Assembly: GCF_002750855.1 (NCBI RefSeq) | Contig: NZ_NWUC01000007.1 | Coordinates: forward strand, 124,001 to 188,000 | DNA length: 64,000 bases | Origin: Neopararhizobium haloflavum | GTDB taxonomy: Bacteria; Pseudomonadota; Alphaproteobacteria; Rhizobiales; Rhizobiaceae | Reading direction: 5' to 3' | Part shown: one piece after another, positions 11,020 to 53,218 of the stretch | Layout: each line of letters starts with the position of its first letter | How positions within the stretch are numbered: the first letter of the stretch is position 1 | Made by a program: the position numbers and the translations under genes | The notes under the pieces: model-generated | The model's input: the letters and a program-made list of their open reading frames with translations, nothing else | Told to the model about the DNA's origin: nothing | The model's database searches: none

Positions 11020-11107
11020 CAATCACGGGACATTTCGGTCATATTTTACAGCTTTACCAGGGTTCCAAGGATTATACGTTTTATTTCACCCCGGATTCGC
11101 TTCGATC

Positions 11108-11125: not shown

Positions 11126-11219
11126 TTGCTCTGGAAAAATTAATTCGGCAAACGAACTATCATTCTCGAATGCGGGCCTGACGCCCGTCCCACCGCTCTG
11201 AATTTCGGATACCGGCCCC

Positions 11220-11693: not shown

Positions 11694-11763
11694 CGGATGC
11701 GCGGGGAACCATCGCACGATCGGCGGAGTTCAATGCTCCAGGGACATGTGTGGAGCTGAACCG

Positions 11764-38700: not shown

Positions 38701-41324
38701 GGGATGATATCGGTCCGGCGCGGAATGGCGCCTGCGATGAGACCGAGAGTCGGCGCGACGAACAGGCTGAGGATCATCGTCATCTGCCAGATGATCGCGG
38801 GCTGGAGGGGCAGCAGGGACCAGCCGAGAACCGAGCCGATCAGCCAGAAGATTGGTGTCAGCGATCGCCGGAGATTGTCGAACATCTTCCAGCGACCAAG
38901 CGCACTGACGCGTTCCTGCCAGCCGAGGATGAAGGGCAGCAACTGCCAGTCGCCTCTCGCCCAGCGATGCTGGCGCGACGACTCGACCTGATAGCGGACG
39001 GGAAAATCTTCGACCAGCTCGACGTCGCTGACGAGTGCGCTGCGCGCAAACGAGCCCTCGAGCAGGTCGTGGCTAAGCACCGCGTTTTCGGGAAGTCGGC
39101 CCGCCAGCGCCGCCTCGAAGGCATCGACATGATAGAGCCCCTTACCGGTGAAGGAACCTTCCTCGGCGATATCCTGATAGACGTCTGATACGGTGAAGAC
39201 GTAGGGATCGAGACCGCGATTGACGGAGAATATCCTCTGGAACGCGGAGGCTTCGTGCCCGGTCGTCAGGGACGGCGTGACCCTCGGCTGCAGGATCGCA
39301 TAGCCACTGACGACACGGCCGTCCTTGTCGAGCACCGGGCTGTTCAAGGGATGGGCGAGCTTGCCGGCCAGCTTGGTGACCGCGTCGCGCGTGAGCCGCG
39401 TATCGGAATCCAGGGTCATCACGTAGCGGATGTCGTCGGGCAGCGGGCGGTCGAGTGGAAGATAGGTCGTGTCCTGATCGCCGCGCAGCAGGAGGTTGAG
39501 CTCGTGCAGTTTGCCGCGCTTGCGCTCCCACCCCATCCAGACGCCCTCGGACGGATTGAACAGGCGCCGCCGGTGCAGCAGGAAGAACCGGGTGCGCCCA
39601 TCGAAGGCGTAGCGGTCGGCAAGCGCATTGACCTCTCGCTGCGCATAGTCGAGCAGGTCGCGGTCCGCCTCGGTTTCCTCATTCTCGCTATCGGCCCAAT
39701 CCGACAGGAGTGCGAAGGAAATCTCTCCGGCCGTGTTGGCGAGGTAGTGGACCTCCAGGTTCCGCAGGAGATCATCGACCCCGTCACGCGAACCGATGAG
39801 GCAAGGCACGACGAGAAGCGTGCGCGCCTCCTCCGGTATACCGTCCTTGAATTCGTAGCCGATCAGCCGGGTGGGTCGGACGGTCAGTGAAATTGTGGTG
39901 TTATAGAGCCCGGTCGCCGCTTCGCTGGCCGGAAACAGGAAGAAGAACAGCAGCGGCAGGCTCACTGCCGCAGAAACACCCATGGCGGATAAGAGCCAAT
40001 AGCCCACGAACAGGAAGATGGGTATGAGCAGCAGTGTGGGGACGGCGATGGAGCGCCATCCGAAACGACGGGTGATCCGCCAGATCCTGTCACGCAGCGA
40101 CGGCTTGTAGTCGATCGCCTTTTCCAGATCATGACGCAGCGGCCCGACCAGGACCCGGCCGGCATCGACACCGCTCTGGGTGCCGGAAACGCCTCCCGCC
40201 ATGGCGATCGCCGTTTCGGCGACATGGGTCTCTTCGCAACCCGCGCGACGCGCGAGCCGCTCAACAGCCTCTCGATAGACATCGCGGGACTGGAAATCGA
40301 GCTGCGCGAAGGTGGAGCGTTCGCGCAGGACCTGATCCACCCGGCTGATCGATTCGAACCAGACGGTCCAGTCGGTATCGTCGATCTTGCGCAAGGACCG
40401 GATGATCGCACCCATCGTCGCATTGCCCGACGAAAGGCGATTGTGCTCCAGGACAAGCACCTCCTCGGCATCCATGCCGCGTGCCTCAAGCTTGGCCTCG
40501 AGCCAGGCGATCGCCTCCTCGGCAATGTCGGAACCGTCACGGAGCCGATAGAGCAGTTGCGCCGCGAAAGCATTGTCGTGGGTGTAGTGCTCGTTCTCGA
40601 TGAGGATCGGGGTGCAGCTCTCGCCGCTCGCCAGCTTCTGGATCCGGTCGGCCACCATGTTGGCGAGCCGCCGCATGTTGCGGGCATTCTCGACGCGCTG
40701 CGAAATCCGGCTGAGATTCTCGATAAGGACGAAACGGAGAATTGAAGGCAGCGCCCAGATCTCACCGATCTTCAGCACCTTGCGCGTCTGAAAACCTTCC
40801 ACCATTGCCGTCAGGCTGTGCAGTGTCAGGGAACTGTGCGTATGCGCGACATAAAGCCAGGCAAGCGCCAGGGCTTGGGGCAGTTCGCCCGTCTCGCTCA
40901 TCGCGAGCGTTGGCAATTGCCGATAGAACTTCAACGGCAGGTCTCGCCGCACCTGCCGTATGTTCTGTTCGACCAGATAGTGATTGTCGAGCAGCCACTC
41001 CGCGGCTGGCGTGATCATCTCGCCGACTTCATTGGCATCGCGGGTCGAGCGATAGGCGTTGAGGATCGCCGTCTCGTTTTCCTTCTGCCGGGCGATGATG
41101 TCGAACGTCTTGAACTCCGGCAGGGCGCGAATTTTCCCTTCAGCCAGTTCGCGGCCTGCAATCTCTATCTCCTGATCAGAAAGATAGGTCGCACGAATGG
41201 AGTCGCTCTTGTTCGCCTGCGTCGACAATCGATGAACCCGGCGACCGCTGGCAACCCCTCGTGACTTTGCTTCGCTTTCAGCGGCTTGCGGATAGCGGCT
41301 CGGGGTCTTGTCTTGGAAGTTCAT
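32709..41324 (-). CDS. ndvB: Cyclic beta-1,2-glucan synthase NdvB
   Basis: This 2871-residue giant inner-membrane protein matches NdvB/ChvB in length (about 2830). It starts the glucan chain, elongates it, trims it to length and closes the ring. In order it has an N-terminal region, spans near 430-475, a GT84 transferase domain (DSDTRL near 635, QHRWARG near 788), more spans (about 820-1000), a glycoamylase-like region (WSGSMFEYLMPP near 1354), and two GH94-like modules. The last carries GGDWNDGMNRVG near 2558, the phosphorylase-type chain-length control site. ATG 41324 gives the family N-terminus; its ribosome binding site is weak. The 291 bp upstream, shared with a divergent reductase gene, show no gene. 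Confidence 0.96.
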   Translation of the reverse strand: MNFQDKTPSRYPQAAESEAKSRGVASGRRVHRLSTQANKSDSIRATYLSDQEIEIAGRELAEGKIRALPEFKTFDIIARQKENETAILNAYRSTRDANEVGEMITPAAEWLLDNHYLVEQNIRQVRRDLPLKFYRQLPTLAMSETGELPQALALAWLYVAHTHSSLTLHSLTAMVEGFQTRKVLKIGEIWALPSILRFVLIENLSRISQRVENARNMRRLANMVADRIQKLASGESCTPILIENEHYTHDNAFAAQLLYRLRDGSDIAEEAIAWLEAKLEARGMDAEEVLVLEHNRLSSGNATMGAIIRSLRKIDDTDWTVWFESISRVDQVLRERSTFAQLDFQSRDVYREAVERLARRAGCEETHVAETAIAMAGGVSGTQSGVDAGRVLVGPLRHDLEKAIDYKPSLRDRIWRITRRFGWRSIAVPTLLLIPIFLFVGYWLLSAMGVSAAVSLPLLFFFLFPASEAATGLYNTTISLTVRPTRLIGYEFKDGIPEEARTLLVVPCLIGSRDGVDDLLRNLEVHYLANTAGEISFALLSDWADSENEETEADRDLLDYAQREVNALADRYAFDGRTRFFLLHRRRLFNPSEGVWMGWERKRGKLHELNLLLRGDQDTTYLPLDRPLPDDIRYVMTLDSDTRLTRDAVTKLAGKLAHPLNSPVLDKDGRVVSGYAILQPRVTPSLTTGHEASAFQRIFSVNRGLDPYVFTVSDVYQDIAEEGSFTGKGLYHVDAFEAALAGRLPENAVLSHDLLEGSFARSALVSDVELVEDFPVRYQVESSRQHRWARGDWQLLPFILGWQERVSALGRWKMFDNLRRSLTPIFWLIGSVLGWSLLPLQPAIIWQMTMILSLFVAPTLGLIAGAIPRRTDIIPRAHLQSVIEEFASATAQVVLRIVFIAHTAWNMGDAIARSFYRLFVSHRKMLEWRTAASAHGSASVDLASFYRAMWQAPAIALVALTVPFLFFGNGGELVAIPFSLLWALSPAVAWFVSQSAETEDRLVVTEHDRLELRKVARRTWHYFESFVTAEHNHLPPDNFQETPVPIVAGRTSPTNIGIYLLSIVSARDFGWISLEEAVSRLEQTTATIGRMESHRGHLYNWYDTRTLQPLMPQYVSSVDSGNLAGHLIAVSSACREWADAPAAFLQGSIEGIDDVAAVVAETFALVADDRRTVRPLRHRLDERIQGFRRALAKLRHEPEFASIRTINLTVLAREIEKLSGDLHEEIDSVESGDLTHWARSLTRTCEAHVADAVFDPHHVEALRTRLAALRERTRDIAFSMDFRFLLRADRRLLSIGYRVTERELDESCYDLLASEARLTSLFGIAKGDLPTEHWFRLGRPIVPVGAHGALMSWSGSMFEYLMPPLVMQERQGGILNQTNNLIVRRQMEYGASLGVPWGISEAAFNARDPEMTYQYSNFGVPSLGLKRGLGENAVVAPYATVLASQYRPRDAVANLTKLRALGALGRYGYYDAVDFTPSRVPEKQTYAVVRNYMAHHHGMSIAAIANVVFSGRLRDLFHSDPVIEAAELLLQEKAPRDVPVITIKHDEKLSSKGPAELRRPELRIVRDPLHAERMTSLMSNGHYSTMLTATGSGYARWNGLSVTRWKPDPTEDRWGSFVFLRDQRSGDWWSATAEPKQAEGEETLTIFADDKAEFYKTVGDIRSELECIVGVESDAEARRLTIFNNGTEDRFIEVTSYAEVVIAADDADAAHPAFSKMFVKTEIGPKGDVIFAERKKRAPNDPDMHVAHLIVDSSNLSRDTQAETDRRAFIGRGRNLSDAAAFDADAKLSGSQGFTMDPILSLRRVVRVPAGKKSRVIFWTLAAPSRHEIEDAVLRYRHAESFNHEMMQAWTRSQVQTRHVGISSQEAADFQRLARYLIYPDLQLRSGTESFSAGLTKQSALWPLAISGDYPICALRINDEADQEIVKKALLAQEYLRARGLVADLVIVNERATSYAQDMQRSIETMCENARLRGTAEGPRQHIFAVRRDLMEPTTYDALMAASRIVLHARNGKLSTQIDRVSHEPPASAVTVPRAKSERIAEEGRPVPSPRARPVATNSGASRAIQPVPPAVAAIDGEGLRFFNGYGGFEGARSDYVVRLHGGAATPHPWINVVSNGDFGFHISAEGCGFSWSRNSRDYQLTPWSNDPVENRPGEAFFIADRETSAVFTPFAALSRDRNQVFEARHGQGFSCFKTKSADGLDMELTQVVDPDNPVKLSRLVIANDGTQTRRLRVYGYAEWVLGNNRSKSAPFVVPAFDSASGVLSAANPYSIDYADRVAFMSCSEAAVSFTSSRREFLGRNGSIYHPSAVYAGKVLSGMTEPDGDPCAAISTDLDIAPGEKREIVFLLGDVGQLAEATALAQRDGSETFKRCLERTEVEWDDFLDTLQVETPDDAMNIMVNRWLPYQSLACRIRARSAFYQASGAFGFRDQLQDTLALMLHDPALARDQILNAARRQFTEGDVQHWWLPASGAGVRTMISDDVVWLVYGVTQYLAATGDVDILDVSLPFIEGDPLGEGQHDSFFEPRVSGETAQLYEHCARALQLAVERTGPHGLPLILGGDWNDGMNRVGEDGRGESVWLGWFLLSAIDAFKPLAAQRHDGRLAGWEAHAGKLKSALEEAGWDGAYYRRGYFDDGTPLGSAANSECRIDSIAQSWSVLSGHGDPSRTTQAMDAVLDQLVDEDAQIVRLFTPPFENTDKEPGYIKGYPPGVRENGGQYTHAATWVVYALARMDRGDDAHRCFDMLNPISHARTRDAAERYRVEPYVVAADVYSGEERDGRGGWTWYTGSGGWLYRAAVEAILGIRRQGDRVMIEPCLPSAWDGYTARLVLEGRRREIVVERADEGYRVRVDGNLLEDGVLAISAGHATKSP

Positions 41325-41615
41325 CGCGGATCGCTGCTTCTGGCTAGGCTGACGGCTGATAGAAGGATGTGGAGCCGGACACCGGCAGAAATGGGGCTGA
41401 CCTACCCGCCGAGGGGACAAGTAACCCACGTTTTTCCAAACCGGTTCCACTCACCTTTCTGGGAAAGCTGAAATATGGCGTGATCTCGCTCGCCACAGGG
41501 AACGTTTTCACTTTTGCGGAGTCATTACAACGCTTGCGGCGATCCGGTGTCGGCATTCGCCCGTAGGTATCAGGAACAATGTGCGGCGACCCTTCCACAA
41601 GCTGATGAGGAAACG

Positions 41616-42326
41616 GTGAACATCAGTACCGACATCGCTCGTCATGCGGCTTCGCCCCTTGGCACACCCTTTGTTTTCGGCCAATTGGGTCAAACGCTCG
41701 ACGGTCGCATCGCCTGCCACAATGGCGCATCCAAATACATCAATGGCTCCGATGCCCTCGACCATCTCCATGGCTTGCGCGCCGAGGTCGACGCGGTCCT
41801 GGTCGGCGTCGGCACGGTGATTGCCGACAATCCTCAGCTGACCGTGCGCCGATGCAGCGGGCAGACCCCGCGTGCGATCGTGATCGATCCGCGACGCCGC
41901 ATGCCGCAGGACGCGGTCCTGATGTCGGCGGGTGACGCGCCGCCCCTGTTCATCCGGCATGAGAATGACGTGCGGTGCGATGCCGACGTCGGCGTTCCAT
42001 GCCTCGAAGCGGACGCGGACGAGGGCCTGCTTGACCCCGTCGCTATCGTTCGGGCGCTCTGCGCGCGAGGCTATGGCCGGATCCTTATCGAAGGCGGCTC
42101 CTCCACGCTGTCCCACTTCATCAATCACCGCGCGATCGACCGGCTTCACATATTGATGGCACCGATCATCCTGGGATCGGGTGTCAACGGGCTGAACCTT
42201 GCGCGCATCGACAGCCTCGATGAAGCCTTGCGGCCCAGCGTGCAGGTCTCTCTGTTCGACGACGGCGATGTGCTATACGAGTGTGCGTTTGAAAGCGCCT
42301 GGTCCAAGGATGACGCGATCCGGTGA
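41616..42326 (+). CDS. RibD C-terminal-type (dihydrofolate reductase-like) pyrimidine/pterin reductase
   Basis: This 236-residue protein is a stand-alone RibD_C domain. It has the N-terminal substrate strand TLDGRIA, the LRAEVDAVLVGVGTVIADNPQLTVR family block (in parts: VDAVLVGVGT, ADNPQLT) and the NADPH-binding GGSSTLSHFI. The deaminase half of true RibD is absent. GTG 41616 is the start, with GAGG five bases upstream; readings further upstream lack a site. In riboflavin synthesis the domain reduces a ribosylaminopyrimidine, but stand-alone copies reduce other pterin-like compounds. It stands 28 bp before cytochrome b561 and faces the glycosyltransferase operon. Confidence 0.8.
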   Translation: MNISTDIARHAASPLGTPFVFGQLGQTLDGRIACHNGASKYINGSDALDHLHGLRAEVDAVLVGVGTVIADNPQLTVRRCSGQTPRAIVIDPRRRMPQDAVLMSAGDAPPLFIRHENDVRCDADVGVPCLEADADEGLLDPVAIVRALCARGYGRILIEGGSSTLSHFINHRAIDRLHILMAPIILGSGVNGLNLARIDSLDEALRPSVQVSLFDDGDVLYECAFESAWSKDDAIR

Positions 42327-42353
42327 TCCGACGTTGATCGAGGAGGGACGGCC

Positions 42354-42917
42354 TTGCAGCGAACGACCTATAACCCTCTCGCCCGTTTCCTCCACTGGTC
42401 GATCTTCCTGCTCGTGGCAATCGGGCTGCCTATCGGCCTGATCATGGTTGAGCGGGATTTCAATCCCGTCACGAACGTTCTCTACACGGTACACTGGTCG
42501 ATCGGCCTGACGGTCCTGCTTTTGATGGTCGTCCGGATCGTCGTCAGGATCGTCGCGCCCCCGCCAAAGCCGGCCCGTGTCCTTACCGGTGCGCAGCGTA
42601 TGGTTTCGAGCATCGTCCATATCGGTCTCTACGTCATGCTGATCGTTGCGCCAGTTCTCGGCTGGCTGGGCAAGTCGGCATATGGTGCGAGCCCGGAAGG
42701 CATCAGTGTCTTCTATCTCTTTCACGTACCCGTGTTGCTTGAGAAGAACGAGGATCTCGCCGAGACACTGCTGTTCTATCACGGGGTTGCCGTGCGGATC
42801 TTCCTGGCGTTTCTCGCCCTCCACCTCGCCGGGGCATTCTATCACGGCGTCATTGCGCGCGACGGCGTCGTCGGCCGCATGGGCATCGGGCGCCGGGTTG
42901 CCGAGCCGGAAGCCTGA
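42354..42917 (+). CDS. Cytochrome b561-family membrane protein
   Basis: This 187-residue protein has four membrane spans with haem-ligand histidines H14 (RFLHWS), H47 (TVHWSI), H89 (VHIGLY) and H157 (ALHLAG). The prokaryotic cytochrome b561 family carries electrons from quinol or to periplasmic acceptors, for example superoxide. Translation starts at TTG 42354 after GGAGGG. It directly follows the RibD-like reductase and could share its electron flow, though that is a guess. Its stop touches the stop of the convergent methyltransferase gene. Confidence 0.85.
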   Translation: MQRTTYNPLARFLHWSIFLLVAIGLPIGLIMVERDFNPVTNVLYTVHWSIGLTVLLLMVVRIVVRIVAPPPKPARVLTGAQRMVSSIVHIGLYVMLIVAPVLGWLGKSAYGASPEGISVFYLFHVPVLLEKNEDLAETLLFYHGVAVRIFLAFLALHLAGAFYHGVIARDGVVGRMGIGRRVAEPEA

Positions 42918-43736
42918 TTACCCAACGAAGATGTCGAAATGGCCCACGACGGCCTGCTCGGACCTCCGCCTGTCATCGAGCCACTTTGCTGCTTCACCCT
43001 CGCCGGCGCCGCCCGCCACCGCAGCGTTGGCGATTCCCTCGGCAAGCATGGTGCGCAGTGCCACCTCATCTTGCCCCAGGTCCCAATCGCTGGGTCCGAT
43101 CGTGGCCGCCAGGCCACGCTCGCGCGCACGTTTCGCCAGATAGCCGGCCGCCTCACCCCCCAAAGCGTGGCCAAAGCCCTTGTCGCGCCGCTGATCCCGA
43201 TTGAATGCCGCAAGAATCGCCGCGTCGAGAGGATGGGCCGGGAGCCATCGCTCTTCGCCGCTGTAGTTCAGGGCAAAATAGAGACCGAAGCCGTCGGCGA
43301 CGGCATGCGCCAGCATCCGGTCAAGCCAATCGGCTGACACGAGATCAATCAGCGCCGAGCCCGTGACGACGTCCGGCTCGAATTCGCCGATGAGATCGTT
43401 GACCGCGTCCTGAGAGGCAAGATCGACAGTTGTGAAGGTGATCGCAACATCGAGATCGTTCGTCTGCTCGCGCGCCATGGACAGCAGGAGCGCATCGGCA
43501 TCACACAGAAGCCACCGCTGCGAAACCCCTGGCAGCGCCGCACTCAGAAAAGGAGCCAGAGCGCGGACCGTCGACCCCGTGCCGCAGCCCATATCGATCA
43601 ATCGAAGTTCGTCTTCCGCGCTTGATAGGTAATTCGCGAAAGCCTGCCGAACGTCGCTGTTGCGGGCTGCGTTGTCGGCGGGTTCGCGCAGCGCGAGCCA
43701 GTCGGCGGAAAAGGCATCGTTCGTCTCAGCATTCAT
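42918..43736 (-). CDS. SAM-dependent class I methyltransferase
   Basis: This 272-residue protein has a class I methyltransferase fold with the SAM-binding loop DMGCGTGST (48-56) and the acidic end of strand 2 (LLCDAD). Substrate cannot be read from sequence. Its ATG overlaps the stop of the glycosyltransferase gene (ATGA), so the pair is translated together. It is the last gene of a five-gene minus-strand operon and could methylate the glycosylated product of its neighbours. Confidence 0.8.
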   Translation of the reverse strand: MNAETNDAFSADWLALREPADNAARNSDVRQAFANYLSSAEDELRLIDMGCGTGSTVRALAPFLSAALPGVSQRWLLCDADALLLSMAREQTNDLDVAITFTTVDLASQDAVNDLIGEFEPDVVTGSALIDLVSADWLDRMLAHAVADGFGLYFALNYSGEERWLPAHPLDAAILAAFNRDQRRDKGFGHALGGEAAGYLAKRARERGLAATIGPSDWDLGQDEVALRTMLAEGIANAAVAGGAGEGEAAKWLDDRRRSEQAVVGHFDIFVG

Positions 43737-44779
43737 TGCTGCTCGTTCCCATCAATTGCATCGGCGATGCGGCGGGCGGTATCTTGCCATCGGGGCAATC
43801 TCTGGCCATGCCATGCAGCCCGGCGCGCCATTTCGGCCGCCAGGCTGTCATCACACAGAATTTTCGCGAGCGCGCCCGACAATGCACTGACGTCGCTCGG
43901 TTCAACAAGGATGCCTGCATCGGGCGGCACGACATCGGGCACCGCCCCGGCATGATAGCCGACGATCGGAAGCCCGGCGGCGAGCGCTTCGGCAAACACC
44001 ATCCCGTAGCCCTCATAGTGCGAAGGCAGCGCGAAGACAGACGCCTCTTTGAAGGCAGCGTCCAACTCGGTCGAAGTCAACGGTCCTTGAAGCTCGATAC
44101 GGCGCTCCAGCCCCGCACGAACGATTGCGTCCTTCACTGACGTGACCGTATCGGGAGCCGCGCTGACGGATCCGACAAAACGCGCGTTCCAATCGAGCTC
44201 CTTGATGCGCTCAAGTGCGGCGACCAGATCGACATGGCCCTTGCGCGGCAGGATCGATGCGACCGTGAGAATCAGCGGCGGCCGGGTGGTTCGCGGCGCT
44301 ATCGTTCGACGATCCGTTCCCGGAAGGGCGACGGTGATCCTGTCTTCGCGAACGGAAAGCAGCTGACCAATGGTTCGCGCCGTCTCATGGCTCGTCACGA
44401 TCACATGGTCTGCCAGCTTCAGCGCCGCCTTCTCCGAGGCGATCAAAGCCTGGCTTGTCCGCTCAGACAAACCGGTCTCCAATCCCAACGGGTGATGCAG
44501 GAGGACGTTCACCGGGCCCGGCGCCATCGCGATGATGTCGGTTGGCATGGCGCCATAGGCAAGACCGTCGATCAGGATGGGGCGCGCGGCGGGTTGGCGC
44601 GAAAGCAGCGCGGCCGTCTCACGCAGCGATCGTTCGCTGGGAAACGGATAATCGTCGGCCAGGCGAACCACCTCGCATGTGATCCCCATTGCCTTCCAGC
44701 ATGCGATAATCTGGCGGGCATAGCCGTAGCCGCCTGTCGGCTGCTCGATATCACCGGGAATGAAGAACGAAATCTCCAT
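43733..44779 (-). CDS. GT4-family glycosyltransferase
   Basis: This 348-residue protein is a GT-B fold glycosyltransferase of family 4. The N-terminal GGYGYARQI loop and the nucleotide-sugar motif EALAAGLPIVGYHAG (E-x7-E class) with GAVPDVV are visible. There are no membrane spans, so it should act at the cytosolic face. The start lies 5 bp after the PTPS-like gene and the end overlaps the methyltransferase start. Sugar donor and acceptor are unknown. Confidence 0.85.
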   Translation of the reverse strand: MEISFFIPGDIEQPTGGYGYARQIIACWKAMGITCEVVRLADDYPFPSERSLRETAALLSRQPAARPILIDGLAYGAMPTDIIAMAPGPVNVLLHHPLGLETGLSERTSQALIASEKAALKLADHVIVTSHETARTIGQLLSVREDRITVALPGTDRRTIAPRTTRPPLILTVASILPRKGHVDLVAALERIKELDWNARFVGSVSAAPDTVTSVKDAIVRAGLERRIELQGPLTSTELDAAFKEASVFALPSHYEGYGMVFAEALAAGLPIVGYHAGAVPDVVPPDAGILVEPSDVSALSGALAKILCDDSLAAEMARRAAWHGQRLPRWQDTARRIADAIDGNEQQ

Positions 44780-44784
44780 GAATG

Positions 44785-45192
44785 TCAGCGCACGCTGCCC
44801 CGGTATCCCGCCCTGGCGAAATGCGATTCATGAAGAAGCACATGGATTTCCTCGACGTTCCCCGACCCTTCGCCAAGCCCGCCGGTCCGCGCGCATTCCG
44901 CCAGTTCGTCGAAAATGTACCGGGCCAGGAATTCCGTAGTTGTCAGTTGACCGTCGAACGGATCGAATTCGTCGAGGTTCTGATAGTTAAGCGGCTTGAG
45001 CGTCGCTGCAAGCGCTTCCATCGCCTTGCCGATATCGACGACGACATTCTTGCCGTTCAACCGGCTTGCAACGAAGCTGACATCGACCGTGAACGTCGCT
45101 CCATGAAGGCTTTGCGCAGGCCCGAAGAACGGATCCTTGAGCGAATGGGCAATCATGATGGAATCGCGCAACTCGACGGAATAGTGAGACAT
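44785..45192 (-). CDS. Degenerate 6-pyruvoyl-tetrahydropterin synthase/QueD-fold protein
   Basis: This 135-residue protein has PTPS/QueD length and layout. Two of three zinc histidines remain (H16 in IAHS, H30 in LHG), but the third, in the usual HGH, is A32. The catalytic Cys four residues before H30 is A26, and the catalytic Asp-His pair is N69-Y70. The closing Glu that holds the pterin ring is kept (E122 in HESH), as is TTTEFLA. So it probably binds a pterin-like ring but cannot use the known chemistry. ATG 45192 has AAGGGAG upstream. It is fused in operon with the glycosyltransferase. Confidence 0.8.
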   Translation of the reverse strand: MSHYSVELRDSIMIAHSLKDPFFGPAQSLHGATFTVDVSFVASRLNGKNVVVDIGKAMEALAATLKPLNYQNLDEFDPFDGQLTTTEFLARYIFDELAECARTGGLGEGSGNVEEIHVLLHESHFARAGYRGSVR

Positions 45193-45232
45193 CCAAACTC
45201 CCTTGCTTTTCGGGCACGAAAGCCCGTTCTCG

Positions 45233-46210
45233 TTATGAATAGGACACCGCGGTCGCCAGCCCGTCCGCCTGTGGATCGAGGATTTCACCGATGCGCCGTG
45301 TCAGCTCGTCAAAGCGCACTTCGCCGGTGATCACCGCGTCATATTTGTCGCTGCGCAGCAACGCCAGCGCGGCTTCCAGGCGGCGTCGATGGGTCCAGCG
45401 CGCGCGGCGCGTGGGCGACACCATGCCGACCTGCGAGGAGCGCAGGACGAGCCGCTTGCTGTGAAACGACTGGCCGAGCGGCAAGGAGGGACATTCATTC
45501 CCATACCAGCTGGCCTCCACAACCGTGCTTTCTGTCCCCGCCAAGCCCAGCGCGGTGGTGATCCCGGCCTCGCTCGCGCTGGTATGAATGACGATATCCT
45601 GGTCGTCGCGCGCGTCTTCGGGTCTGGCAAAGCGGGCGCCGAGCGCCTCTGCAACGGCCGCACGCTGCGCATTGATGTCGATGACTGTCACGCTCGTGCC
45701 GGGAATGTCGGAAGCGATGCCTGCCACAAGCAGACCGAGCACGCCGCCGCCGACGATGCTTACGCTGTCGCCTGGACCGATCGCTCCGTCCCAGACGACG
45801 TTGAGCGCGGTTTCCATGTTGGCGGCGAGGATGGCTCTGCGCGCCGGTACGCCTTCCGGCAGTCGGATCAGCGCCGCTCGCGATGCCTCCACCCTTTCCT
45901 GATGCGGAAACAGACCGAACCATCGACCGTCCGCGTCCGCACCGACCCACGCATAGCCGTAGCCGACCGGAAACGGAAAATCGCCATGCTGGAACGGCGC
46001 GCGCATGCGGTGATACTCGCTTGGCGGGATTTTCCCCTGGTAGACAAGCCGCTCCGTGCCGCGGCTGATCCCGGTGTAAAGTGTGGAAAGATCGCGAGTG
46101 GTATCGCCCTCGCCCAGCCGGACCGGCACCTTGCGGATTTCCGCCACGCCCGGCGCGGTGTAAGTCAGGCATCGCGTCATCGACACAGCCCCGTCATTGG
46201 AAGAACCCAT
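45233..46210 (-). CDS. Medium-chain dehydrogenase/reductase, BchC-like, without catalytic zinc site
   Basis: This 325-residue protein is an MDR-superfamily oxidoreductase with the nucleotide-binding loop VGGGVLGLLVAG. Where alcohol dehydrogenases have the zinc-binding TGICGTD it has TGISRGTERLVYQG, which is close to the bacteriochlorophyllide dehydrogenase BchC type; no structural-zinc cysteine cluster is present. It probably oxidises or reduces a hydroxyethyl-type side chain, but the substrate is unknown. ATG 46210 (GAGG upstream) is used; ATG 46180 is an alternative. It is 20 bp after the sulfatase gene and 40 bp before the PTPS-like gene. Confidence 0.75.
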   Translation of the reverse strand: MGSSNDGAVSMTRCLTYTAPGVAEIRKVPVRLGEGDTTRDLSTLYTGISRGTERLVYQGKIPPSEYHRMRAPFQHGDFPFPVGYGYAWVGADADGRWFGLFPHQERVEASRAALIRLPEGVPARRAILAANMETALNVVWDGAIGPGDSVSIVGGGVLGLLVAGIASDIPGTSVTVIDINAQRAAVAEALGARFARPEDARDDQDIVIHTSASEAGITTALGLAGTESTVVEASWYGNECPSLPLGQSFHSKRLVLRSSQVGMVSPTRRARWTHRRRLEAALALLRSDKYDAVITGEVRFDELTRRIGEILDPQADGLATAVSYS

Positions 46211-46230
46211 CGGCCCTCGTCTCGCCTGCG

Positions 46231-47877
46231 CTATGTGGGACCAAGCGGTTCACCGTCGGCAGCTGGCGGTAGCGGCGCCTCTTCTGCCTCGATGCCGCTG
46301 GCAGCCCGTACGAACCGCTCACGAAACGCGTTCATGGCCACCGCCTGACCCTGCGGCGACGGGAGCATGCCATCTGCGAGCCCCCACCGCCGCCGAAATT
46401 CACCGACAAGGGCCATGTCGTCGGAAATGACATGATAGGGCACGTCGCGATTCTCCGTCTCACCGGTGAGCATGCGGGACGGCTGATGGTCGCCGAGCAC
46501 GACCATAACAAAGTCGTCATCCAGACGTTCCTCGACATAGGAGGAAAGATTGGCGAGCGCATACTCTATCGAAAGGCGGAACTGCAGTCTGACGCGATCG
46601 GGGTCGCTCCAAACCTCCTTGGGCGTATCGCCGCTGCGGGCCTGGCTGTCGAACACGTGGCCATCGCCGATCGATTCCCAGTCGATCAGTTCAGGAATGG
46701 GCGTCCAGGGCGCGTGGCTGGAAATGAGCGCGATCTCGGCGAAAATCGGAGGTCGGTCCTTCCTTTCGCGCTCCAGCCGATCGAAAGCCGACAAGGTATA
46801 TTGGTCCGGCATCGTCACCCAGTTGAAGGGCAGCCCCTCGTATCCAAGAGCATCTTCGTCGTAGATGGCGTCATAGCCGAAGGCTTCTCCTTCAGGCCAG
46901 GCCATCGTGATCGCCGGCATCACGGCGACCGTGCGCCAACCGGCCCGGTCGAAATCATCGATCAGCGTGGCGCGCTCGCTGACGACCAGGGCGTTGTAGC
47001 GACGCTGATTGTCGACCCAAAGGCCCGAGAGTACGCTGGCATGTCCGAGCCAGCTCTGCCCGCCGGCCACCGGCGAGGTCAGATAGCCGCTGGCCGCCGC
47101 ATACCCCTTTTCTTCCACAACCCTGTCGAATTCTCGCAGCACTGGCTCCACATGCGGGCGATAAAGCGGGTTGGACAGAACCGTCCGGCCGTAGGACTCG
47201 ATGAAGACAAGCAGTACGTCCTTGTCCTTCAGGCGCGAGAACAGCACATCGGAGGGGATTGCCGCGGCGACATCAACGCGCGCCTGCCGTTCGAAGTCCT
47301 CCAGATCGCGAAGACTTGTGGTGAAGGCTTGCGCATGGCGAACCATCAAGTCGGTGCTTTTGCTGGAGGTGAAATCGGCAGACCGATTGTTCGGATAGAC
47401 GGCGGGTATGGAGAGCCCGAGGGCAATCACGGCCGCGCAAAAGCCGGCTGCAATGGACCGGCGCCTGCGCGCGAGGCGTTCAAGGGCGTCGATGGCGAAG
47501 AACGATAGGCACGCTATAGCGATGAGGACGCCCACAAGCGCGACGACCAGCAGCCACGCACCGGGTGTACCGATTGCGCCGGAAATGAGGTTCCAGGCCG
47601 CACCGAGAAGATGAAAATCAAGGATGGGGCTGAAGGGCCGGCCAAGCGCCTGGATCGCCGCCATATCGGCAAGTTTGATCACGGTAAGGAGCGCGAGACC
47701 CAACGCAGCGCCGAAGCGGACGACGGGGCCAAGCACGGAAGGAGCAAGCGCCATGAGGAGGATAGCCACCGGCAGCTCTAGCGGCACGGACAAGAACGGA
47801 CCGACGCCGAATTCTGCGGTGTCGTTCGGCAGTCCGAGTGCAAAAATCACCAGTGCGAGCCAGACGACGATCATCAA
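46231..47877 (-). CDS. Membrane sulfatase-family protein (alkaline phosphatase superfamily)
   Basis: This 548-residue protein has four or five N-terminal membrane spans (to about residue 160) followed by a periplasmic sulfatase/LtaS-like domain. The first metal site is at LLVFIESYG, the likely nucleophile serine is in GGQSWLGHAS, and the closing metal motif is VVLGDHQPS. Relatives transfer phosphoethanolamine or phosphoglycerol to lipid A, glucans or teichoic acid. It leads the five-gene operon with the MDR, PTPS-like, GT4 and methyltransferase genes, which suggests decoration of an exported product. In a genome with cyclic glucans, glucan phosphoglycerol transfer is another option. Confidence 0.75.
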   Translation of the reverse strand: MMIVVWLALVIFALGLPNDTAEFGVGPFLSVPLELPVAILLMALAPSVLGPVVRFGAALGLALLTVIKLADMAAIQALGRPFSPILDFHLLGAAWNLISGAIGTPGAWLLVVALVGVLIAIACLSFFAIDALERLARRRRSIAAGFCAAVIALGLSIPAVYPNNRSADFTSSKSTDLMVRHAQAFTTSLRDLEDFERQARVDVAAAIPSDVLFSRLKDKDVLLVFIESYGRTVLSNPLYRPHVEPVLREFDRVVEEKGYAAASGYLTSPVAGGQSWLGHASVLSGLWVDNQRRYNALVVSERATLIDDFDRAGWRTVAVMPAITMAWPEGEAFGYDAIYDEDALGYEGLPFNWVTMPDQYTLSAFDRLERERKDRPPIFAEIALISSHAPWTPIPELIDWESIGDGHVFDSQARSGDTPKEVWSDPDRVRLQFRLSIEYALANLSSYVEERLDDDFVMVVLGDHQPSRMLTGETENRDVPYHVISDDMALVGEFRRRWGLADGMLPSPQGQAVAMNAFRERFVRAASGIEAEEAPLPPAADGEPLGPT

Positions 47878-48064
47878 GACTGTCTCGCTGTCCGGACGTC
47901 AGCCCGCAATGCGCTCACCGATCGGCTCTTTGATCGCCTTGCCCCGAGCGGGGTCATACTTGCGGCGATTGTGCGCACGCCGTGGCAGAACCAGTGATGT
48001 GCTTTATCTGTGTGCTTCAAGATGAACCGGATCCTCCCAATGGCCACACGCGGCGAAGCTCTCG

Positions 48065-49042
48065 ATGTCTGACCACAAGCGGATGCGCATCCGCCAACCG
48101 TGGTCCATGATGCCCGAGCGGCATGGAAATGTCATACGCGTGCTGTGCGTCATCGGACTACTCGTCGCGATCATGATCGTCGTCGATTTCGGCGATGCGC
48201 TCGAAAGCCTCCTCAACGCCGATCCGCTGCTGATCTTCGTCGCTCTTCTTCTGGTCCAGGGACAGATCGTCCTGTCCGCGCTGCGCTGGCGTTTCACCGC
48301 CATGCGCCTCGGCCAGCCAATCGGCACGAGAACGGCGATCGGCGAATACTATCTCGCAAGCCTGCTCAATCTCGTTCTTCCCGGTGGGGTCGGCGGCGAT
48401 GTGCTGCGGGCCTACAGAATGACGGCGCAAGACGCGGGCGGTTCGTCGGGACGCGATGCACCCGCAACGGTGCGGGCCGTCATGCTTGAACGCCTGGCCG
48501 GGCAGGCAGCGTTTTGCCTCATAGCCGCGGCTGGGGCCTTTGCCTGGCCGCTGCTTCTGACGGGATCGCGTCCTGAGGGCACCCTCACGCTTCTGGCACT
48601 GCCGCTTCTCGCCGTTGCCATCGTGGCCGCCGCCGCGTGGGCGGTCCTCCGTTTCGGTCCAGAGCCCGCGCGCCGGTTTGTCGCGGACACCGGGCCGGAT
48701 ATCATCCGCGCATGGTTTCGCCAGGGCGCATGGCTGGTGCAAGGCGTTCTGAGCATCGTCATCGCCCTACTCTATATCGCCGTCTTTGCGATAGCCTCCG
48801 CGGCCGTCGGCGCCCCGCTATCCTGGCCCGCCTGGATCACCCTCGTGCCTTTGGTTCTCCTGACCATGCTGATCCCCATATCGGTCGGCGGCTTCGGCAT
48901 CCGTGAAGGCGCGGCAGCAGCGCTTTGGCCGCTGGCCGGCCACGCAGGCTCCTATGGCCTCGCAGCCGCCTTGCTCTACGCGCTTCTCAGCATCGCCGGC
49001 GCGGCGCCGGGGCTGCTTCTGGTCTGGAAGAGGCGTCGTTGA
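48065..49042 (+). CDS. Flippase-like (UPF0104/LPG synthase TM) membrane protein
   Basis: This 325-residue protein has about eight membrane spans and the UPF0104 signature: LSALRWRF after the second span, the NLVLPGGVGGDVLRAYR loop (in parts NLVLPGG and GGDVLRAY), and PISVGGFGIREG near the end. Members flip or modify lipids and prenyl-linked sugars; the catalytic domain of lysyl-phosphatidylglycerol synthase is absent. It is divergent from the sulfatase gene and convergent with the FkbM gene, 6 bp apart. Export of the locus product is a reasonable role. Confidence 0.8.
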   Translation: MSDHKRMRIRQPWSMMPERHGNVIRVLCVIGLLVAIMIVVDFGDALESLLNADPLLIFVALLLVQGQIVLSALRWRFTAMRLGQPIGTRTAIGEYYLASLLNLVLPGGVGGDVLRAYRMTAQDAGGSSGRDAPATVRAVMLERLAGQAAFCLIAAAGAFAWPLLLTGSRPEGTLTLLALPLLAVAIVAAAAWAVLRFGPEPARRFVADTGPDIIRAWFRQGAWLVQGVLSIVIALLYIAVFAIASAAVGAPLSWPAWITLVPLVLLTMLIPISVGGFGIREGAAAALWPLAGHAGSYGLAAALLYALLSIAGAAPGLLLVWKRRR

Positions 49043-49048
49043 GATCGG

Positions 49049-49813
49049 TCAACGACCGTCCGGGCCGAGGCTGAGAGTCCGGGCATAGATATCACCGGAC
49101 CGGCCGCTCGCCGCGCAATCGGCCAGCCGCGACCGCAAATCGATGTCCGATAACCATTGTTCGCTTTCGAACCGATGGCTTTCCCCCGACACCAAATTGT
49201 ATTCGTAGGCGCCGAGCGTGTTCAGCCTGTCGATGCAGGCATGGGCCATGTCGATGGTCGCCGGCAAATACTCGAATGCCACGAGGGCTATCGGCTGGCT
49301 GAGACCGGCAAGAATCTCGCTTTCCATCCCCTCCACGTCGATCTTGCAGAAGGCAGGAACGCCGTATGCAGCAATCAAGGCGTCGAGCGTCGTTACCTCG
49401 ACTTCGGCGCGCGTGTCCCATTCCACTCCGCCGAACCCGGCGCTGTCGCCAACCGCTTCGATCCACTGCGCCGAGAGCGTGGTGACCGTTGGATGCCGGC
49501 TGGAAATGTGAAGCGTCATCTGTCCCGGCTCGCGCCCAACGGCCTTTCCGACCAGCTGGAAGCGGTCGCTGCGCACGAAACGGGAAAGAAAGGAGCGGAA
49601 GGCCGGCTGCGGCTCGCACGCAACGACCCGCGCACCTGCCGCAAGCATTGCCGCACTGCGGTTGCCGACATGCGCGCCGATATCGAAGCACAAATCCCCG
49701 CGCCGGATGATGCGCCCGTAGTGCCGTCGCAACTGCCATTTGCGCCACGGCTGACCGTGATAGATCACGAGGGACCGCGACATGCCCCAGGCGGTCCTGA
49801 GCCGGCGTGTCAT
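49049..49813 (-). CDS. FkbM-family methyltransferase
   Basis: This 254-residue protein is an FkbM-type methyltransferase: SAM loop FDIGAHVGNRS (43-53), ACEPQP (65-70), and the family end block FCKIDVEGME (155-164). FkbM enzymes methylate hydroxyl groups of sugars or polyketides. Its ATG overlaps the stop of the CDP-alcohol phosphatidyltransferase gene (ATGA), so the two are co-translated and should act on the same lipid or glycan. Confidence 0.85.
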   Translation of the reverse strand: MTRRLRTAWGMSRSLVIYHGQPWRKWQLRRHYGRIIRRGDLCFDIGAHVGNRSAAMLAAGARVVACEPQPAFRSFLSRFVRSDRFQLVGKAVGREPGQMTLHISSRHPTVTTLSAQWIEAVGDSAGFGGVEWDTRAEVEVTTLDALIAAYGVPAFCKIDVEGMESEILAGLSQPIALVAFEYLPATIDMAHACIDRLNTLGAYEYNLVSGESHRFESEQWLSDIDLRSRLADCAASGRSGDIYARTLSLGPDGR

Positions 49814-50610
49814 GGTACGCTCTGCACGTCGGTTCCGGCGCGGTTTCGGCTGAGCCAGACGATGTCGATCGCAAAGGACATCAGGTTCAGACCGAGCGCG
49901 GACGCGGCAATGATGACGGCGAACGTCCCATCCACGACCGGCATGACGAGGCCACTGAGAAGGATACCAAGCAGCGCGCAGACCCCTTTCCGCCTGAGCG
50001 ATGGCGGCATTGGGCGCGAAAGCCAGGGCCACAGATATGCCGCGCCGATGAAGACGTAACGCGACAGCCCGATGAGCACGACCCATGGGCCTGTCTTGTC
50101 GAGCACGAAGGCAAGAACGGACAGGATGAGGATGACGAGCGCGTCGCTCTCCATGTCGAAGCGGGCGCCGAAGGCCGATCGTGGACCAACCCGCCGCGCC
50201 AGCAGGCCATCGAGCCCGTCGAGCGAGACGGCAAGCACGGCCATGCCGGCAAAGGTCCAGGCCAGATGACTGCTCGGCTGCAGCGTCCAATGCGAGACCT
50301 CCGCCGCGTAGCCGGCAATGAGGGCGGCGAGCACCGTGCGTGCCAGCGTCACCGTGTTCGGCCAGCCGAAAACGCTGTGGGGGTGGAAGGCAAGGATTCT
50401 CGATACGATGATCGCGCTGACGGTCAGATAGATCGCCGTTGATGTCAGGGCGGCAACGAAACCGAAGGTCGCGACCGAGGATGCATAGACATTGGCGATC
50501 ATCAGGCAGAAGCCCGCCGCCGCCACGACGCCGACCGTCTGGCGATAAAGGGCGCGCCCCTGACGACGATCAACGTGCCCGTGCACGAGGGTGGACTGTC
50601 TGTTTTCCAT
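49810..50610 (-). CDS. CDP-alcohol phosphatidyltransferase family protein
   Basis: This 266-residue membrane protein has six or so spans. The full CDP-alcohol motif is present, DG-x2-AR-x8-G-x3-D-x3-D, from DGLLAR to DMESD (about 138-160). Such enzymes displace CMP from a CDP-linked alcohol to make phospholipids such as PG, PI or PC. ATG 50610 with AAGG upstream is used. It heads a two-gene unit with the FkbM methyltransferase. Acceptor alcohol unknown; housekeeping pgsA and pssA are usually elsewhere. Confidence 0.85.
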   Translation of the reverse strand: MENRQSTLVHGHVDRRQGRALYRQTVGVVAAAGFCLMIANVYASSVATFGFVAALTSTAIYLTVSAIIVSRILAFHPHSVFGWPNTVTLARTVLAALIAGYAAEVSHWTLQPSSHLAWTFAGMAVLAVSLDGLDGLLARRVGPRSAFGARFDMESDALVILILSVLAFVLDKTGPWVVLIGLSRYVFIGAAYLWPWLSRPMPPSLRRKGVCALLGILLSGLVMPVVDGTFAVIIAASALGLNLMSFAIDIVWLSRNRAGTDVQSVP

Positions 50611-50847
50611 GGAGCCTTCTACGAGGCGCACGCCGTGCCCGATCACCAGCCGGCAGATTTCTTCCCGGATTGCGGTGAATTTGAGAACACAGTCTTTCTG
50701 GAACCGCTTCAGCCATCGTGTGTTTTAGCATTTCATCGTACGCATTCAGTGTCGTCACCTACACCGCCGACAGGCACGATCGACGGGGCCGGCTCAGCCT
50801 TGTGACCGGCACGCAGACAAAACCGCTCGGAAGGCTTGGAGTTGCCG

Positions 50848-52545
50848 ATGAAATCAGCAGACCGTGACGACGAACTGTTCGCTACCCACCCGGATCCGGT
50901 AGATTTCACTGAAGGCCATCGCATCGAACCACTGATCGGGGGCCAGGCAACTTTTGCAGCCATAGAAAGGGCGATCGAGGAAGCATCCCGATCGATCCAT
51001 ATGGCATACTGGACCCTCGACCCCGCCCTGAAGACAACGAAGAACATCAAGGCGGAAACATTGACCGACCTGCTGCGAGAGGTGGTAAAGCGTGGCGTCG
51101 AACTGCGCATCGTGATCGCCGATTTCGACCCGGTCATCGGATCGACATTTCATCTCGACGCCTGGAACTCCTACCGCAAGCTCTCCAGGATCACGGAAGG
51201 CCTGGATAAGGACGCGACGAACCGCCTCTCCGTCATGTGCTCCAGGCACGACACCCGATGGGGACCTGTTGCGCGCGCTGCGGCGCAGCCGATCCTGAGG
51301 TTCAAGCTTGCGGAAAAGATCGCCGAGATCAACGAGATCGAGCCGCTCAAGGAGCGCCGCGACGCCATCGCCAATGCCCCCGGCCTCTGGCCATTCATCA
51401 CGTTCGACGGCAAATCTGCGAAGGTCAGGAAAAACGCCTTTCCAGGATTCTACCCGGCCGCCCATCACGAGAAACTGTGCGTTATCGACGACCGCATCGT
51501 CTTCCTCGGCGGCCTCGACATCAACGCCAAGCGGCAAGACGACTGGGATCACGACAATGCCTTTCCGTGGCACGACGTCGCCTGCAGGCTGGAGGGCCCG
51601 GTCGCGCGATTCTTCGCCAGCCACTTCCGCAGCCGGTGGAATGAGGAGCGCGAGGACAGCCTTGCCTTCATGAAGAACGCCATGCCGCCTGACTCGATCG
51701 CGCCTCTGCCCGACGGAATTGGCATCCCGAAACTCGATACCGAAGTGGCCGAATGTCCCGCGATTGAAGATGGTGTGGAGGTCAAGCCGCTACGCACGTT
51801 GTCTCGCCAGAACCGCGCCTGGTTCTCCCGCTCACCGCGCAAGCAGATCATGGAGATCAAGGACGCCTATCTGGATGTCATCTCCAAGGCGGAGGACTTC
51901 CTTTACATCGAGAACCAGTACATCCGCTCAACGCCGATCGCGAAAGCTCTGGCCGATCGTGCAACGGCGAACAAGAAGCTCGAACTGATCCTTGTTCTGC
52001 CACTGATTCCCGAGGACGCTTTCGTTGAGGAAGAGCCGAACATAGCAACGCGCCACGGCCAGTATCTGAGAGAGAAAAACACCGATCTGCTCTATGACGC
52101 ATTCGGCAAGCGGATCGGCATCTACTCCATGCAAATGCCCCGCGACGACATTCTGCCTGATCCTGAAAAGGACGATGCCGACGACATCATCAAGAACACG
52201 ATCTACATCCACGCCAAGACGCTGGTCTGCGACGACAAGACTGCGATCATCGGCTCTGCCAATCTCAACGAACGCAGCCTTGTAACGGATACCGAAACCG
52301 CGATCGTGTGGCGTGACTTGGCGGGCACCCGGGTGCGCGACTATCGCGTACTGTTGTGGCAACACGCGCTGGATATGGACACCTCGGACTGGACCTCGGA
52401 TCATCTTTCCCAGTGGAACCGGATCGCCAAGGCAAACGCCAAGGGCGATGCGGACGAGCGCCAGGGCTTCATCGTCACTTTTCCGCGCCGCCACCTGGAC
52501 GCCCATGCCCGAAGATCGTGGCTCGTACCTGACGAACTTGTCTGA
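50848..52545 (+). CDS. Phospholipase D-family protein
   Basis: This 565-residue protein has two PLD catalytic HKD motifs: HHEKLCVIDD near residue 206 and IHAKTLVCDD near 454, each with the following GG or GSANLNERS block. It resembles bacterial PLD1/2-like enzymes and cardiolipin synthases in motif layout, but it has no signal peptide or membrane spans, so cytosolic action or unusual secretion is expected. ATG 50848 has GGAG six bases upstream; a TTG four codons earlier is less likely. The 237 bp before it, up to the CDP-alcohol gene start, show no gene. Confidence 0.85.
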   Translation: MKSADRDDELFATHPDPVDFTEGHRIEPLIGGQATFAAIERAIEEASRSIHMAYWTLDPALKTTKNIKAETLTDLLREVVKRGVELRIVIADFDPVIGSTFHLDAWNSYRKLSRITEGLDKDATNRLSVMCSRHDTRWGPVARAAAQPILRFKLAEKIAEINEIEPLKERRDAIANAPGLWPFITFDGKSAKVRKNAFPGFYPAAHHEKLCVIDDRIVFLGGLDINAKRQDDWDHDNAFPWHDVACRLEGPVARFFASHFRSRWNEEREDSLAFMKNAMPPDSIAPLPDGIGIPKLDTEVAECPAIEDGVEVKPLRTLSRQNRAWFSRSPRKQIMEIKDAYLDVISKAEDFLYIENQYIRSTPIAKALADRATANKKLELILVLPLIPEDAFVEEEPNIATRHGQYLREKNTDLLYDAFGKRIGIYSMQMPRDDILPDPEKDDADDIIKNTIYIHAKTLVCDDKTAIIGSANLNERSLVTDTETAIVWRDLAGTRVRDYRVLLWQHALDMDTSDWTSDHLSQWNRIAKANAKGDADERQGFIVTFPRRHLDAHARRSWLVPDELV

Positions 52546-52597
52546 GACGGCAAGCCGCACCCCTTCAGGAAAACGCCTTCGTCCGGATAAACAAAAA

Positions 52598-52617
52598 GGG
52601 GCGGCACTGGCCGCCCC
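52598..52617. terminator. Terminator between the PLD gene and the PfpI-family gene
   Basis: Perfect 8-bp arms GGGGCGGC (52598-52605) and GCCGCCCC (52610-52617) flank ACTG. On the minus strand TTTTTGTTT follows, giving a strong terminator for the PfpI gene. On the plus strand ATTTC follows, weaker for the PLD gene. Confidence 0.85.
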
Positions 52618-52651
52618 ATTTCAGGTCACGAGAACCGCCGTCCCTTCGGCG

Positions 52652-53218
52652 TTATTCCGCTGCGATACCACGCTGGTGACGGCCTTCCTCGATCTCCTCG
52701 ACGATCTTGGCGTTGAACGCCGGCAGGTCCTTGGGGTTGCGAGAGGTCACGATGCCTTCGTCTACAACCACTTCCCGATCGGTCCACCGACCGCCGGCGT
52801 TAAGCACGTCCGTCTTGATCGACGGATAGGATGTGACGTCGCGATCGCGAACCACATTGGCCTCCACCAGGAGCCAGGGGCCGTGGCAGATGGCGGCGAG
52901 CGTCTTTCCCGATTGAGCGAAAGCACGCACCAAGTCAACGGCTTTGGTCTCGACGCGCAACAGGTCTGGGTTGATCTGGCCGCCTGGCAGAACCAGCGCG
53001 TCGTAGTCTTCGACCGATACCTCGTCGAGCGTCTTGTCGACGGCGATCGTGTCGCCCCAATCGTTTTCATCCCAGCTTTTGATGTCGCCCTTTTTCAGCG
53101 AAACGATGTCGACGGTGGCACCTTTCGACTTCAGAAAATCGTAGGGCTCGTGCAGTTCCGACCGCTCAAATCCGTCGGTCGCGAGAATGGCGATTCTTGC
53201 CGTTTCGATCTTGGGCAT
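52652..53218 (-). CDS. PfpI/DJ-1 family protein (type 1 glutamine amidotransferase fold)
   Basis: This 188-residue protein has the PfpI family triad context: AILATDGFERSE with the acidic residue, VLPGGQINPD, and the nucleophile Cys111 followed by His in AICHGPW. Family members act as glyoxalase III/deglycases, chaperones or peptidases in stress. ATG 53218 is preferred because AAGGA is eight bases upstream; ATG 53224 is too close to it. It is divergent from the LuxR-type gene. Confidence 0.85.
   Translation of the reverse strand: MPKIETARIAILATDGFERSELHEPYDFLKSKGATVDIVSLKKGDIKSWDENDWGDTIAVDKTLDEVSVEDYDALVLPGGQINPDLLRVETKAVDLVRAFAQSGKTLAAICHGPWLLVEANVVRDRDVTSYPSIKTDVLNAGGRWTDREVVVDEGIVTSRNPKDLPAFNAKIVEEIEEGRHQRGIAAE

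Follow-up and report, generated by a model that had tools for sequence, protein, structure and literature searches.

One copy of a widespread, uncharacterised biosynthetic gene cluster around an SCO6650-family PTPS-fold protein in Neopararhizobium haloflavum

What could a pyrimidine reductase-like protein, a PTPS/QueD-fold protein, two methyltransferases, a glycosyltransferase and a set of membrane enzymes produce together? We addressed this question for a locus of Neopararhizobium haloflavum (assembly GCF_002750855.1) lying in a window of 64,000 nucleotides, positions 124,001 to 188,000 of contig NZ_NWUC01000007.1 (G000:C34:124001-188000 in our own numbering) in a genome of 4.17 Mb. Ten open frames, extending from 41514 to 50646 of the window, make up the locus, which consists of a four-gene core and an exchangeable membrane module. 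We found that it is one copy of a widespread, rearranged and uncharacterised biosynthetic gene cluster, whose gene set is solid. As to the product, we tentatively propose, with a probability of about 0.42, an uncharacterised pathway that would start from GTP, pass through a ribityl-diaminopyrimidine and end in a methylated glycoconjugate, which the membrane would either anchor or export. Listings and the opening parts of abstracts in the open-access literature contained no description of such a cluster.

The core comprises four genes on the minus strand, encoding a class I S-adenosylmethionine (SAM) methyltransferase (42918..43736), a GT4 glycosyltransferase (43733..44779; PF00534, E 1.3e-27), a PTPS/QueD-fold protein with an altered zinc site (44785..45192; PF01242, E 4.9e-19) and an MDR-family oxidoreductase of BchC-like type (45233..46210). 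The open frame of the PTPS-like protein reaches 45288, and most homologues start near 45192. Using this protein as marker, we obtained matches in 54 of 199 genomes of the order, the window's included, the others being 50-65% identical. All 54 matches besides the window's own were taken as neighbourhoods, some of them short at contig ends, and a scan of named genomes gave at least 588 relatives, the best 80 of which were kept; the two sets overlap, since at least L113, L117, L119 and L123, whose contigs equal those of first-set loci in length, are probably genomes of the first set. Under equal search settings, the 54 order loci and the 80 named loci contained the MDR gene in 53 and 72 cases, GT4 in 52 and 75, and the class I methyltransferase in 48 and 74, respectively. 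By comparison, none of 20 control stretches (20 kb, one from each of 20 PTPS-positive genomes) had a match of at least 60 bits, and a single weaker GT4 match was seen. Because the core recurs in nearly all 54 order loci and in 0 of the 20 controls at 60 bits or more, the grouping reflects more than chance. The first-pass annotation of this DNA, made from the letters alone, had named co-occurrence in other Hyphomicrobiales as the touchstone for its locus; the genes do keep company there, and the locus is not confined to that order.

The core was found in Alpha-, Beta- and Gammaproteobacteria as well as in Actinobacteria; its frequent extras are a RibD_C reductase, cytochrome b561 and GTP cyclohydrolase II, the last of which is not in the window. 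The six other members of the window's family among the 199 order genomes did not have the PTPS-like gene, and two same-family members from a later draw carry it (G440, G566). In that draw of 398 Pseudomonadota genomes, the gene was present in 27 (~7%), and 18 of these neighbourhoods were read. Eleven of the 18 lie outside the window's class; all 11 have the methyltransferase, GT4, PTPS-like and MDR genes together with a CDP-alcohol transferase, and UPF0104 and RibD_C are each present in 10 of the 11. Plasmids also carry the cluster: of 20 records with a match, 11 were opened, and the core is annotated on plasmids of Streptomyces fungicidicus, Thiodictyon, Neorhizobium, Methylosinus, Microbacterium, Agrobacterium and Palleronia, with core genes recognised by sequence in two further plasmid copies (L174, L175). 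The copy on the Microbacterium plasmid pSGAir0570_2 (L172) resides on a 59-kb plasmid typed mobilizable, a sign of possible movement between hosts. The Palleronia plasmid copy (L176) has two added genes, for an inositol-monophosphatase-family protein and a PfkB kinase (5168-5971 and 10994-11884), and inositol-monophosphatase-like matches also occur in other copies, for example L105, L149, L157 and L158.

What kind of protein is the PTPS-like member of the core? Its profile matched SCO6650 of Streptomyces coelicolor (PDB 3d7j) with an E-value of 2e-55, as opposed to only 4e-6 to 2e-4 for true PTPS and QueD proteins, and its AlphaFold model reached a TM-score of 0.95 to 3d7j at 50% identity. The PTPS/QueD fold is likewise evident, with TM-scores (model length) of 0.60-0.78 to PTPS and QueD entries; the scores against the curated families remained below their cut-offs (TIGR03367, 32.9 bits vs 89.25; TIGR00039, 29 vs 125.5). 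PTPS enzymes employ three histidines as zinc ligands and a Cys-Asp-His catalytic triad. In our alignments, the HGH zinc motif of human and worm PTPS coincides with HGA of the PTPS-like protein, leaving the latter short of one zinc histidine, and HGA was present at 145/145 loci of the first set and 18/18 later ones (163/163; a pattern recognised it at 126 loci of the first set, the other 19 being inspected by eye, and some genomes were counted twice). The triad is not retained either, the worm Cys aligning with Ala26 (invariant in 30/30 rows, with Gly in one later copy) and the worm Asp-His with Asn-Tyr, of which Tyr70 is nearly invariant. By the features tested, the protein is thus not a PTPS or QueD enzyme despite the shared fold. 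It belongs to the SCO6650 family by sequence, fold and the same altered site, SCO6650 likewise having HGA for HGH, and the same gene neighbours are found on a Streptomyces plasmid copy. Public records label the PTPS-like member of the cluster 6-carboxytetrahydropterin synthase, and several add a Gene Ontology (GO) term for queuosine synthesis; the active-site evidence contradicts either label. A 2008 study of SCO6650 by Spoonamore, Bandarian and co-workers reportedly found neither zinc nor triad nor PTPS activity, and is said to have described SCO6655 as a variant cyclohydrolase II whose reaction ends with the formylated pyrimidine. SCO6655 is also named in a metabolic modelling paper (PMC2853524). 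The conserved gene set turns SCO6650, so far an orphan crystal structure, into part of a testable pathway.

The altered site also bears on whether the cluster makes a pterin glycoside of the cyanopterin/limipterin type, that is, a soluble light-absorbing or redox pterin. The cluster resembles those cyanobacterial and green sulfur bacterial systems in joining a PTPS-fold protein with sugar transfer, here alongside a methyltransferase, and the fold could still bind a pterin-like ring, given that Glu122 and a TTE motif are invariant in 30/30 rows of the alignment. However, a true PTPS and cyclohydrolase I act in cyanopterin and limipterin synthesis, whereas the PTPS site of the cluster is altered at every locus examined, its partner is cyclohydrolase II, and a membrane module recurs. 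We therefore regard a pterin glycoside as improbable. For the same reasons, the term "pterin-type ring enzymes" used by the first-pass annotation is not supported: the PTPS-like protein is without one zinc histidine and the triad-aligned residues, and other copies of the cluster have, as their GTP enzyme, cyclohydrolase II, which by family makes a pyrimidine, rather than cyclohydrolase I.

The case for a GTP-derived heterocycle is built on this cyclohydrolase and on the RibD_C protein. The latter, a pyrimidine reductase-type protein without deaminase domain (41616..42326, plus strand; PF01872, E 1.5e-37; open frame from 41514 upstream), carries the RibD_C domain (129.8 bits vs a cut-off of 24.1), and its nearest solved relatives are 6p8c, a 2,5-diamino-6-ribosylaminopyrimidinone 5'-phosphate reductase, and the archaeal reductase 2azn. 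A RibD_C gene was found in 29/54 order loci and 45/80 named loci. GTP cyclohydrolase II (RibA) lies within the clusters of many relatives (21/54 order and 35/80 named loci) and, at the level of genomes, the cluster-type enzyme was present in 29 of 54 PTPS-positive as compared to 6 of 145 PTPS-negative genomes (Fisher p 1.7e-14, with related genomes counted separately and shared ancestry uncorrected). Cluster type was defined here as an NF006456 match with E < 1e-70, a threshold picked after viewing the listing. In some genomes, e.g. G065, G019 and G101, the enzyme is present and unlinked. The frequent cyclohydrolase II and a RibD_C protein closest to diaminopyrimidine reductases fit a GTP-derived heterocycle. 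Of the "pterin-like or heterocyclic conjugate" postulated at first pass, "pterin" is not established.

Might these simply be ordinary riboflavin, folate or queuosine genes grouped by happenstance? Public records point that way, using names such as RibD family, RibA and 6-carboxytetrahydropterin synthase. We nevertheless consider it very improbable, as the QueD-like protein and RibD_C fall under every curated NCBIfam cut-off they matched, which for RibD_C includes all seven matches and with them the riboflavin enzymes. A parallel is offered by the archaeal-type precursor steps of riboflavin and F420, in which a creatininase-like formamide hydrolase acts: the cluster has a lone RibD_C reductase near 6p8c and 2azn, and a creatininase homologue is present in several clusters, namely those of two Streptomyces plasmids and some Proteobacteria. 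It differs by its GT4, methyltransferase and membrane module, which are, to our knowledge, foreign to that pathway. Overall, parts of the cluster are similar to pathways for GTP-derived pyrimidines and pteridines; the cluster belongs to none of those tested. Concerning the cyclohydrolase itself, the Met form is formyl-retaining, and both Streptomyces copies (2/2) are Met forms accompanied by creatininase. Of 58 Proteobacterial copies, 56 have Tyr, while L074 and L075 have Leu and are without the cysteine motif. A rule pairing the Met form with creatininase and the Tyr form with its absence was discarded, because Tyr and creatininase occur together in 3 plus 4 later Proteobacterial loci.

We next turn to the membrane module, which in the window consists of a sulfatase/phosphoglycerol-transferase-type membrane protein (46231..47877, minus strand; PF00884, E 3.1e-6, barely above cut-off), a UPF0104/LPG_synthase_TM flippase-like protein (48065..49042, plus; PF03706, E 1.2e-34), an FkbM-family methyltransferase (49049..49813, minus; PF05050, E 2.7e-15) and a CDP-alcohol phosphatidyltransferase (49810..50646, minus; PF01066, E 3.5e-13). 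The last has the family motif DxxDGxxAR(x8-9)GxxxDxxxD, which is intact in the window protein and in 23/24 relatives. In relatives, a homologue of the membrane glycosyltransferase OpgH/MdoH is the more common companion (43/54 order and 52/80 named loci), compared to the CDP-alcohol transferase (5/54 and 14/80), UPF0104 (3/54 and 10/80) and the sulfatase-type protein (3/54 and 11/80). FkbM, present in 21/54 and 30/80 loci, stands beside either kind of module. Among the 134 of 145 neighbourhoods having both PTPS-like and MDR genes, 96 contained OpgH only, 23 the CDP-alcohol transferase only, one contained both and 14 neither; the OpgH or CDP gene most often adjoins the MDR gene. The sulfatase-type and UPF0104 genes follow the CDP type, each being present in 17 of 25 CDP clusters (window counted) vs 1 of 96 OpgH clusters. 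In 11/11 loci outside the window's class, the CDP gene is divergent from the MDR gene with match edges less than 650 bp apart, and the two genes also adjoin in two Streptomyces and one Microbacterium plasmid copy. The later 18 loci comprised 8 with CDP only, 2 with OpgH only, 4 with both and 4 with neither. Together, the recurrent CDP-alcohol transferase and UPF0104 fit the earlier suggestion of a "perhaps lipid-linked" conjugate, which is plausible; if true, it would mean a new class of membrane compound.

The distribution of the module could also mean that the membrane genes of the window (sulfatase-type, UPF0104, FkbM, CDP) form a system of their own that happens to lie next to the core, with the core making a soluble glycosylated, methylated pyrimidine or pteridine. 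A tree of MDR proteins, with 132 rows representing 131 of the 134 loci (three short sequences were dropped) plus the window, is relevant here. The window MDR falls into a supported set of 8 (SH-aLRT 96) with 5 OpgH clusters and 2 with neither module, the window being the sole CDP representative; because it sits among OpgH-type clusters, its CDP module apparently joined separately. In addition, 12 of the 132 clusters have neither module. One of them, L068 (11286-16346), lies near frames that by eye resemble a phytoene desaturase, a glycosyltransferase and an acyltransferase. On the other hand, CDP and UPF0104 accompany the core in varied arrangements in Actinobacteria and several classes of Proteobacteria, unlike chance neighbours. 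Two independent systems therefore appear doubtful to us.

The prevalence of OpgH raises the further question of whether the locus modifies periplasmic glucans, with OpgH, FkbM and the sulfatase-type protein as glucan genes. Beside the RibD_C gene, window positions 32709-41450 (minus strand) encode a 2913-residue protein of the GH94 glucan synthase type, which probably makes cyclic beta-1,2-glucan, and in some genomes, e.g. G101 and G188, the MdoG and PTPS-like genes are ~6 to 10 kb apart. An OpgH-family glycosyltransferase is part of the cluster form common in Rhizobiales (906.8 bits to NF003963 for the L037 copy), as it is of OpgGH-type periplasmic glucan synthesis. We took a census of OpgH and MdoG in 43 of the 54 PTPS-positive order genomes, 11 being left out by hand, several as fragmented or contaminated and some not. 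Cluster-type OpgH (at least 44% identity) was present in 34/43 genomes, and a second OpgH (31-41% identity) in exactly the 36/43 that have MdoG, such that MdoG tracks the other OpgH (36/36) and does not co-occur with the cluster type in the OpgGH manner. Six of the 43 genomes have cluster-type OpgH with neither second OpgH nor MdoG match, and a search of the window genome (G000) returned no OpgH and no MdoG match. The cluster OpgH is thus a divergent paralogue, found with or without MdoG, and not an ordinary glucan enzyme, because MdoG follows the second OpgH and the cluster type occurs without MdoG. Moreover, no OpgH was seen in the four actinobacterial copies that have core genes (L166, L172, L174, L175), and relatives do not share the neighbouring glucan synthase, with one match below 60 bits in 134 loci. 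A periplasmic glucan link was therefore set aside as the principal explanation, and we judge it improbable.

Returning to the pathway that we favour, from GTP to a methylated, membrane-linked or exported glycoconjugate, we propose the following scheme. What we observed is the gene set with its conservation, the altered PTPS site, the intact CDP-alcohol motif, the alternative modules and the distinctness of the cluster OpgH from the glucan OpgGH pair; every catalytic step and the product are our inference, and the sequence of the steps is guesswork. GTP cyclohydrolase II, which belongs to the cluster in many relatives and is not in the window, would open GTP to a diamino-ribosylaminopyrimidinone phosphate, and the lone RibD_C reductase would convert the ribosyl to a ribityl chain, ahead of any deamination. 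The PTPS-fold protein with its altered zinc site may bind the heterocycle and reshape it with the MDR oxidoreductase, and sugar and methyl transfer would fall to GT4 and the class I methyltransferase, respectively. The CDP-alcohol transferase would then couple the conjugate to a phospholipid-type anchor, UPF0104 would move it across the membrane, and FkbM and the sulfatase-type transferase would finish it there, perhaps with electrons carried by b561. The place of the CDP/UPF0104 pair would be taken, in most of the Rhizobiales copies read, by an OpgH-like membrane glycosyltransferase. In a more specific and unlikely version, the product would be a GTP-derived redox compound anchored in the membrane. 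The CDP-alcohol transferase would join CDP-diacylglycerol to the chain phosphate of a ribityl-pyrimidine or -pteridine that bears a sugar and a methyl group, and the resulting compound would be flipped by UPF0104 and oxidised or reduced via b561. Such a compound, if real, would be a lipid-linked cofactor unlike quinones or flavins.

Several observations weigh against the proposed pathway. A search of the window genome itself returned no cluster-type GTP cyclohydrolase II, and its only cyclohydrolase II match is a RibBA (G000:C20:181412-181867, L177) lacking the cysteine motif by eye, so that the proposed first step is without assigned enzyme in this genome. More broadly, 25 of the 54 PTPS-positive genomes are without a strong RibA match, three of them having a weaker one (G053, G152, G177), and RibD_C is near the core in only 74/134 loci, some of which are on short contigs. 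The alternation of OpgH and CDP involves few independent switches, with 4 changes of label required on the best MDR tree, paired tests on independent branches pointed in the same direction and stayed below significance (paired sign test), and CDP and OpgH matches occur together in 4 of the 18 later loci. The OpgH matches in those four are 32-38% identical, as are canonical enzymes, and are separated from the MDR gene by more than 4 kb. At L043, L117, L167 and L169, the PTPS-like gene stands alone, with no core around it, and we found no product, activity or mutant of the cluster. The first two of these lone genes are in Rhodomicrobium, probably in one genome; the other two are on Streptomyces plasmids, with sigma factors and BTAD-type regulators encoded nearby.

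The remaining core proteins and the packing of the locus can be described briefly. The class I methyltransferase had a weak PF13649 match under the Pfam cut-off (1.2e-4) and no NCBIfam match, leaving its family unnamed by these libraries. Its model has a pLDDT of 96, and the best 50 solved fold neighbours are diverse methyltransferases of 9-18% identity, among which no specific functional neighbour stands out and no acceptor is indicated. The MDR protein has a nearly invariant SRGTE motif and, by eye, no zinc-ligand pattern; its weak match to BchC (TIGR01202, 42.9 bits vs 291.25) does not make it a BchC. Cytochrome b561 (42354..42917, plus strand; PF01292, E 2.4e-25), possibly the membrane electron carrier of the cluster, was found in 25/54 order and 40/80 named loci, with at least 80 bits in 20 and 33 of these. 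Each of the ten proteins matches the family assigned at first pass or a near equivalent, and the tight packing noted there is confirmed. RibD_C, b561 and UPF0104 are read rightward, and the methyltransferase, GT4, PTPS-like, MDR, sulfatase-type, FkbM and CDP-alcohol transferase genes leftward. The convergent stops of b561 (42917) and the methyltransferase (42918) have 0 bp between them, those of UPF0104 (49042) and FkbM (49049) 6 bp, and 4-bp overlaps join methyltransferase and GT4 (43733-43736) as well as FkbM and CDP-alcohol transferase (49810-49813).

Past the CDP gene, window positions 50836-53635 hold a phospholipase D/cardiolipin-synthase-like frame and a frame named DJ-1-like by eye. 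Both were considered as cluster members and rejected, with 0 phospholipase D and 1 DJ-1 match in 134 loci. In relatives, a 320-residue protein with neither Pfam nor NCBIfam match (L052, 4751-5713, and its relatives) is located on the OpgH/FkbM side of the cluster, where it was found in 14/54 order and 23/80 named loci.

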